Positions 214-46,929 of a stretch of 64,000 nt of DNA are shown here, piece by piece. The DNA comes from Branchiostoma floridae (Eukaryota > Chordata > Leptocardii > Amphioxiformes > Branchiostomatidae). The stretch covers positions 12,791,304 through 12,855,303 of the forward strand of contig NC_049981.1 in assembly GCF_000003815.2 (NCBI RefSeq), written 5' to 3'. Every line of letters begins with the position of its first letter. The stretch's first letter is position 1. The translations under genes and the position numbers were made by a program. The notes under the pieces were generated by a model, which was not told the origin of the DNA, ran no database searches, and saw only the letters and a list, made by a program, of their open reading frames with translations.

Positions 214-3200
214 CGCGGCTTGTTTTCACAGTGATATCAGATCTCTTAAAGACTCTGTTGTGATGACCAACTCTGACTTTCAGAGAAGCTTCCGGAGACA
301 GTAGTGGTCCAAGAACAACTCCAAGTTTTCCAACAGCCTAGATTAAATTGGCATATACCATAAATACAACAACTGTGAAAATATTGCATGTTGGTGTGAA
401 CCTCCTTTAGATATCCACGTTAGATCTTGGCATTGCAGTTTGCACTTAAAATGTATTGTGTCTGCATGAGCATGCATTTTAGGTGTGCAGTATTGATGAC
501 TTGTACACACCACTACCAGTGGACTAGCCCTTTGCTGTAGTGATTGCGTTGTGTGGCCCAGGGCTAAGAAAACAGAGATGGGCACCCCCCTATGCGCCAT
601 CAGGCGCGGGAAGGGTTTAACTTTAACATGTATTGAATAACAATACCTTGACTCAGCCTGATTGGCACAAAATACACATTGGTCGGTGATGACAATTTTC
701 ATAGCGACATGATCCACAGAAGTATTCTCTATGTAGCTCTATAGCCCTGTGTTTAAAATCAAAACATATCATATCTATCGAAGCGAATTGTCAAAGCCGA
801 TTTATAAAAACAATCGGATTTAGAAAAAAAACGACTCACCGACCCAATCAGAGGACCCGCATCAGCGAAAGTATTATGCGAAATCTCCACGACCCCAGAA
901 TCATTCACGACTTGCACAATATCTCCAACCAGAATGCTATCCTTCTCTTGTTCTATGTGGGAGACAACGCTTCTGGGGAATCCAACTCTGTCGAAGTGTC
1001 AAAGGAAAAATAATGTTCAACAGCATTTCCATAATTAATATGGTCCAGACAATTCTGATTAAAATTTTCAAATGGTCTATTTCCTCTATACACATGCACC
1101 TGGCACATCTCCCTAATGTGTATATAATGGTTCATTCCAGAGGTGACAGGGATGGTCACAGATACTCTTTCAACTAGTTGTGGATCTGTGCAGCCATCGG
1201 CTTCATCACCTTATACATTTTCTGCTAGTACTTATCCCTAATGTGTATACAGTGGTGACAGGGGTGACTAATTGCCCCAGCTGGCATGCTCTAGTATTTC
1301 CAGATAAACCATAGGACCACTCTACTCCTGTCAAAAAGGGGTGTAAATATTTTTTAAACGAACCACAAAACTGCAGCAAACTTCTCATGCTGATGCACGC
1401 TAATTTAAAGCACAATGGCTCACAACATACACCCCCATAGCAAACGTGATCGCAATCCATCCAGCGGGTCTAAAGCTTTCTGTCGGGAATCACAAACTCC
1501 AAAACGTGATTCCTACCAAAAACAATACCTGTTTTTTTTTTTCAAGCAGGTAACAAAAAATAAAAAAAATATATAGACGATGTGTTGTGTCTTACCCTTC
1601 GATGCCTGTTATCTGCTGGCCCTGCTTGCTCCTTTTTTCCAACTTAAGCAACACGTGGCCAACATCATCTAAGCCGGTTACAATCCCTTCCGTACCACAG
1701 GTGGAAAACTGGAAATAAGGACATCATTCAGACTGTGACATCGCTTTTAAGAAATTCTCTCAGCAAAATTTTGTGACGTTCTCTCTGATAAGCCGGTAAG
1801 TGACATCAATTTGGCTTGGAAGCATAGCACAAGAAAAAACAAACCTTTTCCAAGCCTCTTGAAATTGAGCTGGATGTCATGCATATGTTTGCCAGCTCAT
1901 CTCTATGTGACTGAAGTCTCAACCAAGCCTAAAAGTGAGAACTGCGTTGTCACACTCACCTCTGACCATTTCTCCTCCACCGTCCCCTGTGCCACATTCC
2001 TTATTCCCTCATCTTCCATGAGTTCTTTCGAGACTTTCACTTTAGTTCTGATTTTGACGCGATCATGCCTCTCAAAGTGTCGATACCTTGCCAGGGAAAC
2101 AGTCTCGTTGCCTGTGTTTTGTGTAAAACAAGTTACAATTTCTCTCTGGAATATATATAAAGCTGGTGTGTTACGCCGAAGGGCGGTTATACCGGCTTTA
2201 TAGATACAGATATAAAAAATCAACCTACAGCTGCAAGAGTATGAAACTTAGAAGTACGTATAGGTTAATCACGGGTACATGTAGGTACCTTTTTTTCAAT
2301 ATCATTTTGTCTTCATATTGCATTCTAATTTGCACCCTGCAGGCTCTTGGAATTATGCTGGATTCATCTAGACGATATGTAAGCTCGTTCAACTATATTT
2401 GCCATTCGGTGGAAACGGTCAAAATTGAAAATCCTGGCCACCTTTGCTCCAAACGATCATGAAATGGAAGTGACTGCAGAAGAAGAAACTTCAAATCATT
2501 TCTTTTTTTGTTATTTTACTGTACTTGTTGGGATTTTATTGAATGAGACATTTCCTTTTGTACTTCACAACTATTGTAGGAAGTGTTTTGAATGGTGGAG
2601 GCTGTTATCCTTCTCAATACAATGTATCCAAAATAATTTGCCCCTTTAAGGCTGCAGCTGGAGGGTTTATAAGATACTTTCCTCCTTCAAGACATTGTTA
2701 AGAATCACGCAAACTAGCTTACGTATCTGTTTTGATATAACTGTAGTGAATCATGTCTTACCTACAATCTGGACACCAATTGCTCGACCATGAATGTCAA
2801 TGATTGCCCAAAGAGGAGTGCCTGTGTCTACTCCACTGAAGAGAAGTCCTCTCCGTACCCCATTGATCGCATAGAGCACGTGCCCCTCTGTGGTGGCCCA
2901 AAAGGAAACTACATTTTCCTGTCTCACAAACTTATCAGGAATGGGATTGAGCCAAAATCCATTCCTCTGAGACAGATCTGGGTGACAAAGGGAAGGCAAA
3001 TTGACAATTGAATTCGGGTCTTCGCTGGTGAAACCAACACTCATTGTCTCACCACCTTTACATGTCTTCCTTCTAGCAAACACAAGAGACATGTGCACTC
3101 TTTCTTCTATTTCAATTGGTCTATCAGAGAACACAATTCCGTCAGATTGGCTGTTTTTGCTCCGTGCCACACTATTTCCATATTCAATTATGATATTGGA

Positions 3201-4532
3201 ACCGTGACTAGTGGTGTTAAACATGAAGGGAGACTGCCGCGTGAGACCTTCAGTGGTGCCATCGGTGGATACTGCAAAACAGAGGAACAAATAGACCAAA
3301 TGTAAAAATAACACTGGAAAGAATTGTTTTCAATCAATACATTTAATACTTTCGGACATAGACATTCAAATAGGTCAACAGTGATCACCCACAGGAATGT
3401 TTCCAGACAATGGATATGGATAGTATGTAATTTTTTCGCCATCCCATTTTTTTTCACTTTTCAAAGATCAAAGATACTGCAAATTTTAGTCGAAATACTT
3501 AATTGCCACTTAGGCCACAGCAAGTAAATTTTATGGATGACATCAGCGCTCGCATTAATTTTCGCCTGATTTCAGAAAAAAAAACAAGAATTTTTTTATT
3601 CTGCAGGGATGGTCAACATGACGATAAAGTACCAAAATGAGGAAATATATATCGTGTTATAGCCTAATAATTGTATTTGTAGAAGTGACACTTGCGAGGT
3701 ACCCAGGACTGTAGTTGTAGAAATGAAACTTATTGGACAGTTGTAAAAGTGACACCAATATGGAAGCTATGAGTGTGGTTACCAACTTTGTTGGTGATGC
3801 CAGTCTACCACACTAGTGTCACTTTTACCACACCAGTATATGTCTTAAATACAGGAATGAATGCTTTGTTGGCTCTGATATCATGTTTTGTCCCTTTAAT
3901 TCTTTTTACAACAGTCATCACAACTTTATGGTGCCTATTTTTGAAAATGTATCCATCTTGTTTTTTTCACCCATCTTGTTTTTTTCGCCCTATCGCACTA
4001 TTTTTGCAATCTGCAGAGGATGTCATCCATAAAATTAACTTGCTGTAGCCTTACATCAAAGTTAACACTGATGCAACAGGAACCACTTGATCACTTTGCC
4101 TTTCCCTCGTGTGTACTAAAAATCAACCAGCCCATTCACTATTATAACATCCCTTATAACTCACAACTTTGCTACCTAACCATTGTTTCCAACGTCAAAT
4201 GTGAAACGTCTAATAGAACATGGCGAATATACAACAACACCTTTACCATGCCTATTGTTCCGTTTACCTGCAGTTCTTGAACTGCCCTGGGACGATCGAC
4301 TTGTTCCGACCGTGCTACTGTCTCCTTCAATTCTCACTTGCTTCCATTCATCATCTAATGCTGCTAGTAGTCGATGGCGCTGCTCGAATGATAGTTCTAA
4401 CTCCTTTACATTCTCTTTGTTAATGAGCTTGATTGAGTCTATCGAGTCTAAACCTTCACTTATGAGTTTGTCAATTGTTTTTTGGTTAAGACGATGGGTG
4501 TCTGCCCATGACTTAAATTCAAAGTCTGACAT
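214..4532 (-). CDS. SAM-like + Neuralized (NHR) + Mind-bomb-type repeat protein, 3' end cut by window edge
   Basis: Minus-strand exons: 4247-4532 (start codon at 4532), 2762-3271, 1960-2111, 1596-1708, 840-972 and 214-337, all with GT/AG borders and compatible phases. They give about 439 residues before the gene leaves the window at the left. Residues 1-60 look like a SAM/death-fold domain (W-A-D-T-H, then D-S-I-D-S-I, then Q-R-H-R-L-L-A-A-L-D-D-E-W), followed by a Ser/Gly/Arg linker. The 510-nt exon encodes a Neuralized homology repeat (F-M-F-N-T-T-S-H-G-S-N-I, then V-S-F-W-A-T-T-E-G-H-V-L-Y-A-I-N-G). The last four exons encode two units resembling the Mind bomb REP/MIB domain (D-R-V-K-I...G-T-E-G-I-V, and V-G-D-I-V-Q-V...V-G-K-L-G-V-V). 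NHR and MIB repeats each bind Notch ligands in their own E3 ligases. Function here is inference. No RING or ankyrin part is visible, but it could lie beyond the edge. The in-ORF Met before the NHR exon that mimics a signal peptide is intronic. Confidence 0.7.
2164..2207 (+). repeat. 44-bp dispersed repeat shared with 49923-49966
   Basis: TGGTGTGTTACGCCGAAGGG and the following CGGTTATACCGGCTTTATAG recur in inverted orientation at 49923-49966. It lies in intron 3 of the SAM-NHR gene. Longer boundaries could not be set. Confidence 0.75.
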
Positions 4533-23196: not shown

Positions 23197-42016
<18,820 letters not shown>

Positions 42017-44374: not shown

Positions 44375-46929
44375 TCAACGTTTATCACATGGACCGAGAT
44401 GCATCTTCAGAACCCCTCGTCTATGCAGATCCCTGTGAAACTCGTATTCCCGGTTCACGTTGTGTTTTTTGTCAAAGTTATTGTACAATGGGGGATAGAC
44501 CTTGTCATGTGGATAGTAGTGGTAGGGAACGGGGACGTTGTTGATGTCCTTCATGAAGGGAAAGAATCCGTATACGTAAGAGTGGTCACAGAACGCCGTC
44601 GCCATCAGGACAGTCACGAGTCCAATAGTGGGACTCCGCCCCATCGACCTGTTGGCAACGCTGGATGCAATCCTGGTTCAGAAGGTAACAAGAAGAAACG
44701 AGAAAAGGAGGTTAATCATCTCCAGCATTGTCTGAGTCAGAACCGATGAAATAGCCTAGTGGGTAGTGCTTGCTTTGACCTTTGCATTTGGGAAGTTGTG
44801 CGTTAAAAAAATCCAAATTAACGAGAGGTAAATGATGGGGATTTCATTCTTGTAACACCTATAATTTAGGTTGAAGTTGACACCATTATTAAAGACTCCT
44901 TAAGGCATCATTCTAAGCAATTGGGACAATATTGCGAAGCATGGGGTCATGGCATGCTTGAAAGTGTCTGTGATGTTGGATTTCACATGATTGTATCGAG
45001 GTTTCTCAATCTCTCATTGTTGATAGATAAAACAGCTACTTACGACATAACACCATTCCGCAGTCTATTCTTTGTAGTCAACACTGTAAGTGGTAGTTTA
45101 TACACGCCTAGAGCCTCCATGATCTTGTCTTTTGATCTGTGATCTGCAAGAAGAACCGAATCTTTCACGTCTTGTAGTCGACTCTCGTACACGTCCTGTG
45201 ACCTATTTTTGAAACGTGAGGACTGGGCCAGTCGACCGGGCGCTTTCAAGTTGACCACTGTCATGTTGGTCCGTCCGCCAACGTCTTTTTCGAACCCTCT
45301 GAGAACAGGCAGGTCTATTCTGATGACGTAATCCTTGGAGTCGATCTCCGGACCACAGCGGCTGCCGAGGAGAACCCCGCTATTGCCCACGATAGCGCAT
45401 GCGTTGTAGTGACCGATGGGAAGCGCAGTATCTTTTGTGGCGTTTCCCCACCTATGCTCCTGCAAGCGAGCCCCAAGGTTCAGCCTCCTCGCCGTGATAT
45501 TTCTGTAAGACAAAATTGTAGTGATGCCTCAGTGAGTCATCTTTGCAAGGTTGGGGGGTACCGGTGTAGATGGTTTTGGCCTGACAGATCATGCTACAGT
45601 TACATCTCTGAACCAATGCCCGCCGGGTAGTTTATATGAACATATCGTGTTGTCCCTTTTTACCTTCGGTGGGGCTCCGATCCCAGTGGCTGCCGGACTA
45701 TTTTGGGGCTAGATCGGGCCCACGGTACGGCTTAGATTCGGCGTCTTTTTCGCCGGGATCCATATTCTAAAATGCAAAATATAAGCCCGTAAACTGCCTG
45801 GTTGGGCATCGGTTTAAAAATGTGACTGTAACATAAGTCAAGACGAGCTCGAAGTGGCGAGAAATGTTTTTGTTAATCCGTACACAAGACATTAGTATTG
45901 CAATTATGGATTATCACAGGATAAAAGATCCTTACAACAATATATAATTAAGTAAAGCTAAAGGAAAAGATGTAAAGTTTGACTGACCTAACTTCTCTCA
46001 GAGCTTCATCGTTGAACTGCCATGGCGAATCCGGCGCCAGGTTTCCAAACACCCAATCTCGGGTTGGCTGAGCAGTCGGATAGGCGTCCCTCGTGTGGTT
46101 ATTATCGGCATCACTGACTTTAACTGCCACCAAGTTCCCAAATACTCTTGATGGGCCTTGAGCCGACTGAACAGTCGGAGTTGGCATCAGGCGTGTCTTG
46201 GTGATCGGGACAGCAAAAGCGAGTTGTAATAATTCTCTGAGTATTGTAGGCAAAATACATTAATGTGGGTATCTTCCTATAACGTGACCGCCATTTGCGT
46301 CTATAACTGCAATGTAGTTGATAGGTATGAATCATTTTACTTACTCCATATCCATAAAGCAAGCAGGAGCTGATAGCCATGTTGGTGTCCCTATTTGCAT
46401 TGGAGCGTTCAAGCCTACACAATAGTCCTGTGATTCATTATTTTAGGTATAAGTGATTCTCGAGACATTTAATGGTGATCTACTAATGAGTATTATAAGT
46501 TGATGTTAAGTATTCCATTGTCTAGCCTACACATGATAATAGTACGCAGAAGACGTTTATAAGCTAATATTGTGCTTTTTGTCTAATGCTCATTAAATGA
46601 ATGTATGTGAATAAAATAAAAATATAAAATAATAGTAAAATTTGTTTCTATTCTATTGTACGTTTCTTTCTTTGAAATTTCTACAATCGGGCACTTATCA
46701 TACAGTTTATTTCGACATCATACAAGTGCTGTGACTGTGTATAGATCTGCATGTGTAATGTACTGCTGCATTTTGAATAAATAAAAAATAAATTTAATAA
46801 ACGCTGTTACCTTAATGGCACAGCCCATAGCAGTATGTAAAATGTTGAAAGTAATGTTACACAAATGACCGTGAGTCGGATTAGTTGACGGGTTGTCCAA
46901 CTTTCGTTGCCATCATTTCTTGACGCCAT
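44375..46929 (-). CDS. ST8-like sialyltransferase (GT29 family)
   Basis: Five minus-strand exons: 46811-46929, 46345-46414, 45988-46196, 45044-45502 and 44375-44672, 1155 nt, 384 aa. The N terminus (M-A-S-R-N-D-G-N) leads into one membrane anchor at about residues 16-37 (type II Golgi topology). Sialyl motif L is C-A-I-V-G-N-S-G-V-L-L-G-S-R-C-G and following E-I-D-S-K-D-Y-V-I-R. Motif S is G-R-S-P-T-I-G-L-V-T-V-L-M-A-T-A-F-C-D. Motif III is H-Y-Y-P. Motif VS is H-N-V-N-R-E, with the C-terminal R-G-V-L-K-M-H-L-G-P-C typical of alpha-2,8-sialyltransferases. N-glycosylation sequons include N-M-T and N-R-S. It transfers sialic acid from CMP-Neu5Ac to glycan acceptors. Acceptor choice (ganglioside or glycoprotein) cannot be read here. 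The acceptor of exon 3 is the least certain border. Confidence 0.9.

Follow-up and report, generated by a model that had tools for sequence, protein, structure and literature searches.

A predicted hybrid gene of the lancelet Branchiostoma floridae joining a SAM-like domain, a Neuralized repeat and Mind bomb-type REP units

Introduction

In the lancelet Branchiostoma floridae, a stretch of 64,000 nucleotides of contig NC_049981.1 (C3:12791304-12855303 of the 513-Mb genome, hereafter the window) carries the first six exons of what appears to be a hybrid gene. Its predicted product brings together the NHR domain of Neuralized and the REP units of Mind bomb, two ubiquitin ligases that are described as devoid of obvious sequence similarity and yet mutually substitutable on the same ligands (PMC5675594). 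Once followed beyond the left edge of the window, the gene model encodes modules in the order SAM-like domain, NHR, REP pair, cysteine-rich module, three REP pairs, cysteine-rich module and one REP unit. A sequence-only reading of the window had proposed that SAM-like, NHR and MIB-type REP modules are combined in one gene. This proposal is supported by the model of the flank, and three other loci, in which no SAM was seen, also have an NHR followed by REP units. Hence, a family of hybrids would exist at several loci, made up of known modules and of one unnamed module. Among the titles and abstract openings listed in full-text searches of open-licence papers, no description of an NHR–REP hybrid was found.

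On balance, we lean toward a hybrid, multivalent and RING-less adaptor, which would read peptide motifs through its NHR and its REP pairs and multimerise through its SAM-like domain, the MZM, ankyrin and RING parts of the parent ligases being apparently absent. Below, we describe the gene model and its modules, then the search for catalytic parts and the related loci, and finally weigh this adaptor against other explanations.

The gene model

Within the window, the gene occupies positions 214-4532 of the minus strand. Six exons with GT/AG borders form a single open frame, giving 437 residues once spliced. Exon 1 (4268..4532) starts with an ATG at 4532, has an in-frame stop codon 18 nucleotides upstream of it, and encodes the SAM-like domain (residues 1-88, assigned from sequence and frame). 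Its phase-1 donor matches exon 2 (2762..3271), a 510-nucleotide exon of phase 1-1 that carries the NHR domain. The next four exons would encode a pair of REP units. Exon 3 (1960..2111, ending in phase 0) and exon 4 (1596..1708, ending in phase 2) correspond to the first and second halves of unit 1; they are assigned from a sub-threshold match of the two exons to PF18346 and from the phase pattern described below, together with the frame for exon 4. Exon 5 (840..987, ending in phase 0) would contain the end of unit 1 and the first half of unit 2, as judged from the frame and from its score against REP2 of human MIB1. Finally, exon 6 (214..337, ending in phase 1) would complete unit 2, on the basis of the frame, the phase pattern and shuffle tests against human REP2.

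The gene is not finished at position 214, and is predicted to be larger than its portion in the window: the model extends about 11.7 kb past the left edge. There, 19 further exons, all with GT/AG borders and compatible phases, lead to a stop codon at C3:12779596. The full model thus has 25 exons with compatible phases throughout, one terminal stop and 1,267 amino acids. It was built by hand from the genomic sequence, the borders being chosen for compatible frames, and the exons would presumably be transcribed as one unit. A terminal exon inside the window (acceptor 33-32, stop 14-12) was considered and dropped; the cysteine-rich exon 7 fitted in frame and position, and has a copy of equal length in exon 21.

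The six phase-compatible exons of the sequence-only reading are all present, with GT/AG borders and in one frame, but the acceptor of exon 5 is probably at 987 rather than at 972. Both acceptors preserve the frame. We favor 987 because the residues that follow the phase-2 intron (G-VGFPRSVV) match, by eye, those at the corresponding position of a later unit (W-CFNPEALKKV), and because the intron-phase pattern of the later REP pairs recurs in exons 3-6.

Intron 1 contains two inverted arms of 33 nucleotides (window 3512-3544 and 4019-4051), 94% complementary and 474 nucleotides apart, which look like a small non-autonomous DNA transposon.

The NHR domain

At the level of sequence, the assignment of exon 2 to the NHR family is certain. 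The match to PF07177 reaches 107 bits (E 1.1e-30) for a cut-off of 23.3 and aligns residues 109-259 with positions 3-149 of the 149 of the profile; with the whole 1,267-residue protein the values are 105 bits and E 5e-30. The Neuralized chains of the PDB, 2yue and 4kg0, are recovered at E ~1e-25, and 54 of 153 aligned residues (35%) are identical in NHR1 of Drosophila Neuralized. The NHR that had been recognized from the letters is therefore borne out, far above the Pfam cut-off and in the reading frame of the gene. The genome search gave no other NHR match on C3. The only in-frame methionine of exon 2 before the Pfam-aligned part, residue 105, stands four residues ahead of it, and might conceivably serve as a separate translation start.

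The REP units

The left flank decides, from sequence, that the gene model as a whole contains MIB-type units. PF18346 has 16 matches in the genome, two of which, on the strand of the gene, lie about 3 and 10 kb beyond the left edge of the window. When the whole 1,267-residue protein is searched, this family is matched in seven stretches with E 5.6e-75 and 248 bits, for a cut-off of 24. Nine units can be delineated, forming the pairs 1+2, 3+4, 5+6 and 7+8 and the single unit 9. Units 3-9 are those of the left flank, and each of them scores 25 to 74 bits with a profile from which it was left out. The introns follow the same organization. Every REP unit is interrupted mid-way by a phase-0 intron; within a pair, the leading unit also carries a phase-2 intron, close to the position of the conserved tryptophan, and the pair ends in phase 1. 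The resulting pattern, 0-2-0-1, is common to the pair of the window (exons 3-6) and to the three later pairs.

For the whole gene, the seven units of the flank make the MIB-type assignment firm, through an HMM match to PF18346, the family that the sequence-only reading had named in advance. In the window alone, the two MIB-type units announced by that reading stay below the Pfam cut-off. The spliced window protein reaches 16.8 bits (E 0.0087) with PF18346 and exons 3 and 4 alone 20.5 bits (E 5.9e-4), whereas unit 2 gives no match to this family in the Pfam search. In a control with shuffled sequences, PF18346 appeared in none of 10 shuffles, yet one shuffle matched another family at E 0.0068, so that such E-values alone are no proof.

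Comparison with human MIB1 gave mixed results. In Smith-Waterman alignments, no shuffle out of 2000 reached the score of unit 2 against REP2, and 3 of 5000 did so when the gap costs were changed; the pairing of unit 1 with REP1 was weakly favored (12 of 2000), and the crossed comparisons were unremarkable (844 of 2000 for unit 1 with REP2, 192 of 2000 for unit 2 with REP1). Among 1304 frames of the window, exon 5 ranks first against REP2, with a score of 50 (next, 38), and exon 6 only 31st, while exon 4 ranks 6th and exon 3 390th against REP1. In HMMER searches with the human MIB1 REPs, the window protein was not placed ahead of shuffled sequences; with hhalign the probabilities were 5% and 1%, and phmmer did not recover MIB1 from the PDB with the tail of the window protein as query. 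The human REPs are too distant as queries to decide. Given their position and the phase pattern 0-2-0-1, we consider units 1 and 2 as putative divergent REP units. A sub-threshold match of unit 2 to the phage minor capsid family PF23982 was set aside as a chance or small-barrel match, as were those to DUF4314 and BPL_C, and scans of IMG/VR confirmed no relative.

The SAM-like domain

The Pfam search of the spliced window protein gave no SAM match. In the PDB, the best relative of exon 1 is the SAM domain of ASK3 (MAP3K15, PDB 6v0m), with E 0.037 over 57 ungapped residues. Against this domain exon 1 scores 67, and the next of the 1,304 window frames 35. A two-row profile made of exon 1 and the ASK3 SAM retrieves 20 entries, including SAM chains of Caskin-1, SHIP2/EphA2, EphA5, SASH1, ANKS1B, SAMSN1 and p73, with some unrelated non-SAM chains in the lower ranks. 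When the ASK3 SAM is used alone, ubiquitin accounts for many of the 27 entries retrieved, and Caskin-1 stands at 0.35 and SHIP2/EphA2 at 0.6; the addition of exon 1 brings these to 0.0033 and 0.0048, the control being a single-sequence search and hence a different method from the two-row profile. An AlphaFold model of exon 1, calculated from the single sequence, consisted of one long helix and was uninformative. The sequence-only reading had left the choice between a SAM and a death-like domain. Of these, SAM fits better: the ASK3 match and the higher ranks of SAM chains in the profile point to a SAM-like domain, even if Pfam does not match it, and a death domain fits less well.

The cysteine-rich module

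A module rich in cysteine and histidine occurs twice in the predicted protein, encoded by exons 7-8 and again by exons 21-22. The alignment of four copies, two from C3, one from C206 and one from C13 (chromosomes and contigs are designated by such numbers), has 16 invariant columns. The module has no match in Pfam and none in the PDB. When one copy was searched as a protein against the genome, 15 matches with E values of at most 1 were obtained, two of which are the query itself. Beyond C3, six matches have E < 1e-3 (two on C206, two on C13, one on C1 at 35.31 Mb and one on C7), and seven are weaker (four on C13, two on C206 and one on C1 at 35.29 Mb). As a companion of REP pairs, this module would represent a domain not described so far.

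The match on C7 (C7:15844760-15844888) is a lone one. At another locus, L033, a REP array occurs with the cysteine-rich module, and the 10 kb examined there show no NHR. At these two places, the module may travel without the NHR.

Search for catalytic parts

The parent ligases contain parts that were looked for in the hybrid gene. PF06701 (MIB_HERC2) was found on C14, C2, C7 and C1, and on C3 not at all among the 8 matches listed (18 candidates scored). In the spliced 1,267-residue protein, four patterns revealed no RING, ZZ or ankyrin motif. Neither RING nor ankyrin patterns were detected in the unspliced open frames of loci L009-L011, and no gene strand had a RING in the scan of unspliced frames; one RING-like and ZZ-like match was observed, on the opposite strand of L024. 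As a check, both L031 and L032, which have MIB_HERC2 nearby, returned ZZ patterns, and L031 ankyrin as well; a weak ankyrin-like match appeared at L041. No RING was found at L031 or L032, so that RING detection had no positive control. Six chosen minus-strand frames beyond the stop codon were also submitted to Pfam and yielded no RING or ankyrin, only one sub-threshold mucin-like match. For the whole protein, Pfam showed no immune domain above the cut-off and no kinase domain.

RING and ankyrin domains are thus likely to be absent. The sequence-only reading had expected that they might lie to the left; none was seen there, and the frame continues instead with more REP units and two cysteine-rich modules up to the stop codon. 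The missing RING suggests an adaptor rather than a ligase.

Related hybrid loci

With home-made profiles, an NHR followed by REPs, CysA, CysB and more REPs was found on C13 at 8.61 Mb (L024 and L040). The same order was found on C13 at 8.62 Mb (L025 and L026) and on C206 (L027-L030); some half-units of these paralogues are weak. On C1, an NHR at 35.26 Mb is followed on the same strand by matches to the cysteine-rich module 22 and 45 kb further, the nearer one being weak. No REP was seen in the 3.4 kb examined there, so that this C1 locus counts only as a likely hybrid.

The donor after the NHR falls at the same codon in four of the five loci, C13 at 8.62 Mb being different. In a tree of 10 NHRs (duplicates were removed, and L008 was left out as its domain is not long enough), the five NHRs of hybrid or likely hybrid loci are separated from the NEURL-like ones with a support of 0.91. 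The paralogous loci differ in their N-termini and in their numbers of repeats. No SAM emerged from the paralogous loci examined with a two-sequence SAM profile, which does recover exon 1, the exon from which it was made.

Two open frames accompany the C13 loci. At 8.62 Mb, a frame of 1,577 residues (L025 1772-6505, plus strand), which precedes and includes the NHR, contains a repeat motif of about 13 residues (SRKQDEPVSSPEV). At 8.61 Mb, a cysteine-rich frame with no Pfam match (L024 6471-6788, minus strand) lies upstream of the NHR.

Other features of the window

A long open frame at 29317-30822 (minus strand) carries a DDE_1 endonuclease domain of a DDE-type transposase. An exon of a SIN3 co-repressor gene is found at 37995-38339 (plus strand; Sin3a_C, E 4e-24) and an exon of a family-29 sialyltransferase at 45040-45528 (minus strand; E 2.5e-23).

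Possible functions of the hybrid protein

If the hybrid is a RING-less adaptor, short peptide motifs would be read by its NHR, in the manner of Neuralized with NxxN, and by its REP pairs, in the manner of Mind bomb 1 with the C-box. The SAM-like domain would multimerise the protein, which could then present its targets or compete for them, with no ubiquitination of its own. Notch ligands would be the first candidates. We infer such a ligand-holding adaptor from published results on the parent systems. In MIB1, the N-box is described as bound by the MZM and the C-box by the REPs, and a fly Mib1 that retains REP and lacks the MZM is apparently dominant-negative (PMC11887331). NEURL proteins are reported to act only on ligands bearing NxxN (PMC12678834). 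Neur is reported to boost a lysine-free Delta, with NHR1 being required (PMC5675594). NEURL4, which has six NHRs and is described as an adaptor-like protein, is reported to bind Dll1 and to boost Neur binding (PMC4565672). By analogy, a role on Notch ligands is plausible, the probability of an unrelated function as a scaffold being only slightly lower. A more precise scheme, which we offer tentatively and hold to be rather doubtful, is that of a RING-less family in which an NHR stands where Mind bomb has its MZM. A single chain could then sit on the NxxN and the C-box of a Notch ligand at once, with clustering by SAM, and would act as a lineage-specific dial on ligand endocytosis, bypassing or blocking both ligases.

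Several observations weigh against a Notch-related, RING-less adaptor. Units 1 and 2 are divergent: half-unit profiles made from the flank units do not match the window exons at E 0.05, a profile of units 3-9 and human REPs gives unit 2 5.5 bits and unit 1 0.6 bits, the tail of the window protein ranks 689th against 20,000 shuffles with that profile, and unit 1 has no pairwise similarity to units 3, 4, 6 and 8 or to human REP2. The phase pattern is a support for these units, not a proof, and is not fully independent since the borders were hand-picked for compatible frames. The apparent absence of RING and ankyrin is drawn from motif patterns and from six chosen flank frames submitted to Pfam, short of a complete annotation. 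Such patterns could miss a RING interrupted by introns, and alternative 3' exons could exist. Zinc binding or catalysis could also reside in the cysteine-rich module. Finally, a lineage-specific repeat family could be unconnected with Notch.

This last point leads to the explanation that best survives beside the adaptor of Notch ligands, and that we regard as a real possibility, if not the better one: the architecture would be the same and the targets different. The hybrids would then be a lineage-expanded scaffold, perhaps in innate immunity or stress signaling, with the NHR and REPs binding other motifs and an ASK-like SAM linking to kinase or death-fold assemblies. The number of loci, with their varied N-termini and repeat numbers, is in keeping with this, and so is ASK3 as the nearest SAM by sequence. 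Lancelets are also reported to gain new domain pairs unusually fast (PMC4284660) and to shuffle SAM in immune genes, for instance as TIR-SAM (PMC2575513). On the other hand, NHR and REP are both known readers of Notch ligands, the NHR-then-REP order mimics the MZM-then-REP order, and, as said above, Pfam detects no immune domain. The very fast gain of domain pairs in lancelets is described as accompanied by a bias to exons of phase 1-1 (PMC4284660). As the NHR exon is itself of phase 1-1, a birth of the hybrid by exon shuffling would be natural.

It is improbable that the gene encodes a full hybrid E3 ligase, in which a further 3' exon or the cysteine-rich module would provide the activity. 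The conservation of 16 columns in four Cys/His-rich copies from three chromosomes or contigs, two of them in this gene, would fit zinc binding, and a module foreign to Pfam and the PDB leaves room for catalysis. However, none of the motif patterns applied to the spliced protein, four in all for RING, ZZ and ankyrin, finds a match, the frames of L009-L011 contain no RING pattern, and the open frame stops after unit 9. We find it very hard to believe that exons of neighboring or broken genes were joined on paper only. The model was indeed drawn from genomic sequence with hand-picked borders, the sequence similarity of units 1 and 2 is weak, and the methionine at residue 105 could be a separate start; but 25 exons are compatible, the phase pattern is repeated, a similar domain order recurs at three other loci and the NHR donor is conserved in four of five.

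Relationships with known systems

The adaptor that we favor would fuse reading modules of two ligases, with the catalytic parts apparently dropped. It would represent a natural experiment on which modules are sufficient for ligand recognition, and the hybrid family makes ubiquitin-independent activation of ligands a testable question.

The SAM-like domain has its best PDB sequence relative in the ASK kinases, from which the amphioxus hybrid gene differs by the absence of a kinase domain according to Pfam. With Neuralized, NEURL1 and NEURL1B, the hybrid shares the NHR domain. However, it has one NHR instead of two, shows no RING pattern and continues with REP units downstream. NEURL4, a partner of HERC2, is similar as an adaptor-like NHR protein acting on Delta-like 1 (PMC4565672). 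In that source it is described by its NHRs only, whereas the hybrid would join NHR, REP and SAM-like domains in one chain. Finally, the hybrid resembles Mind bomb 1 and 2 by its tandem REP units of the PF18346 family, here arranged in pairs and clearly of the family for units 3-9. It differs from them in that no MIB_HERC2 match is listed on C3 and no ankyrin or RING pattern is seen, and it adds an N-terminal SAM-like domain and NHR, more REP units and the cysteine-rich modules.

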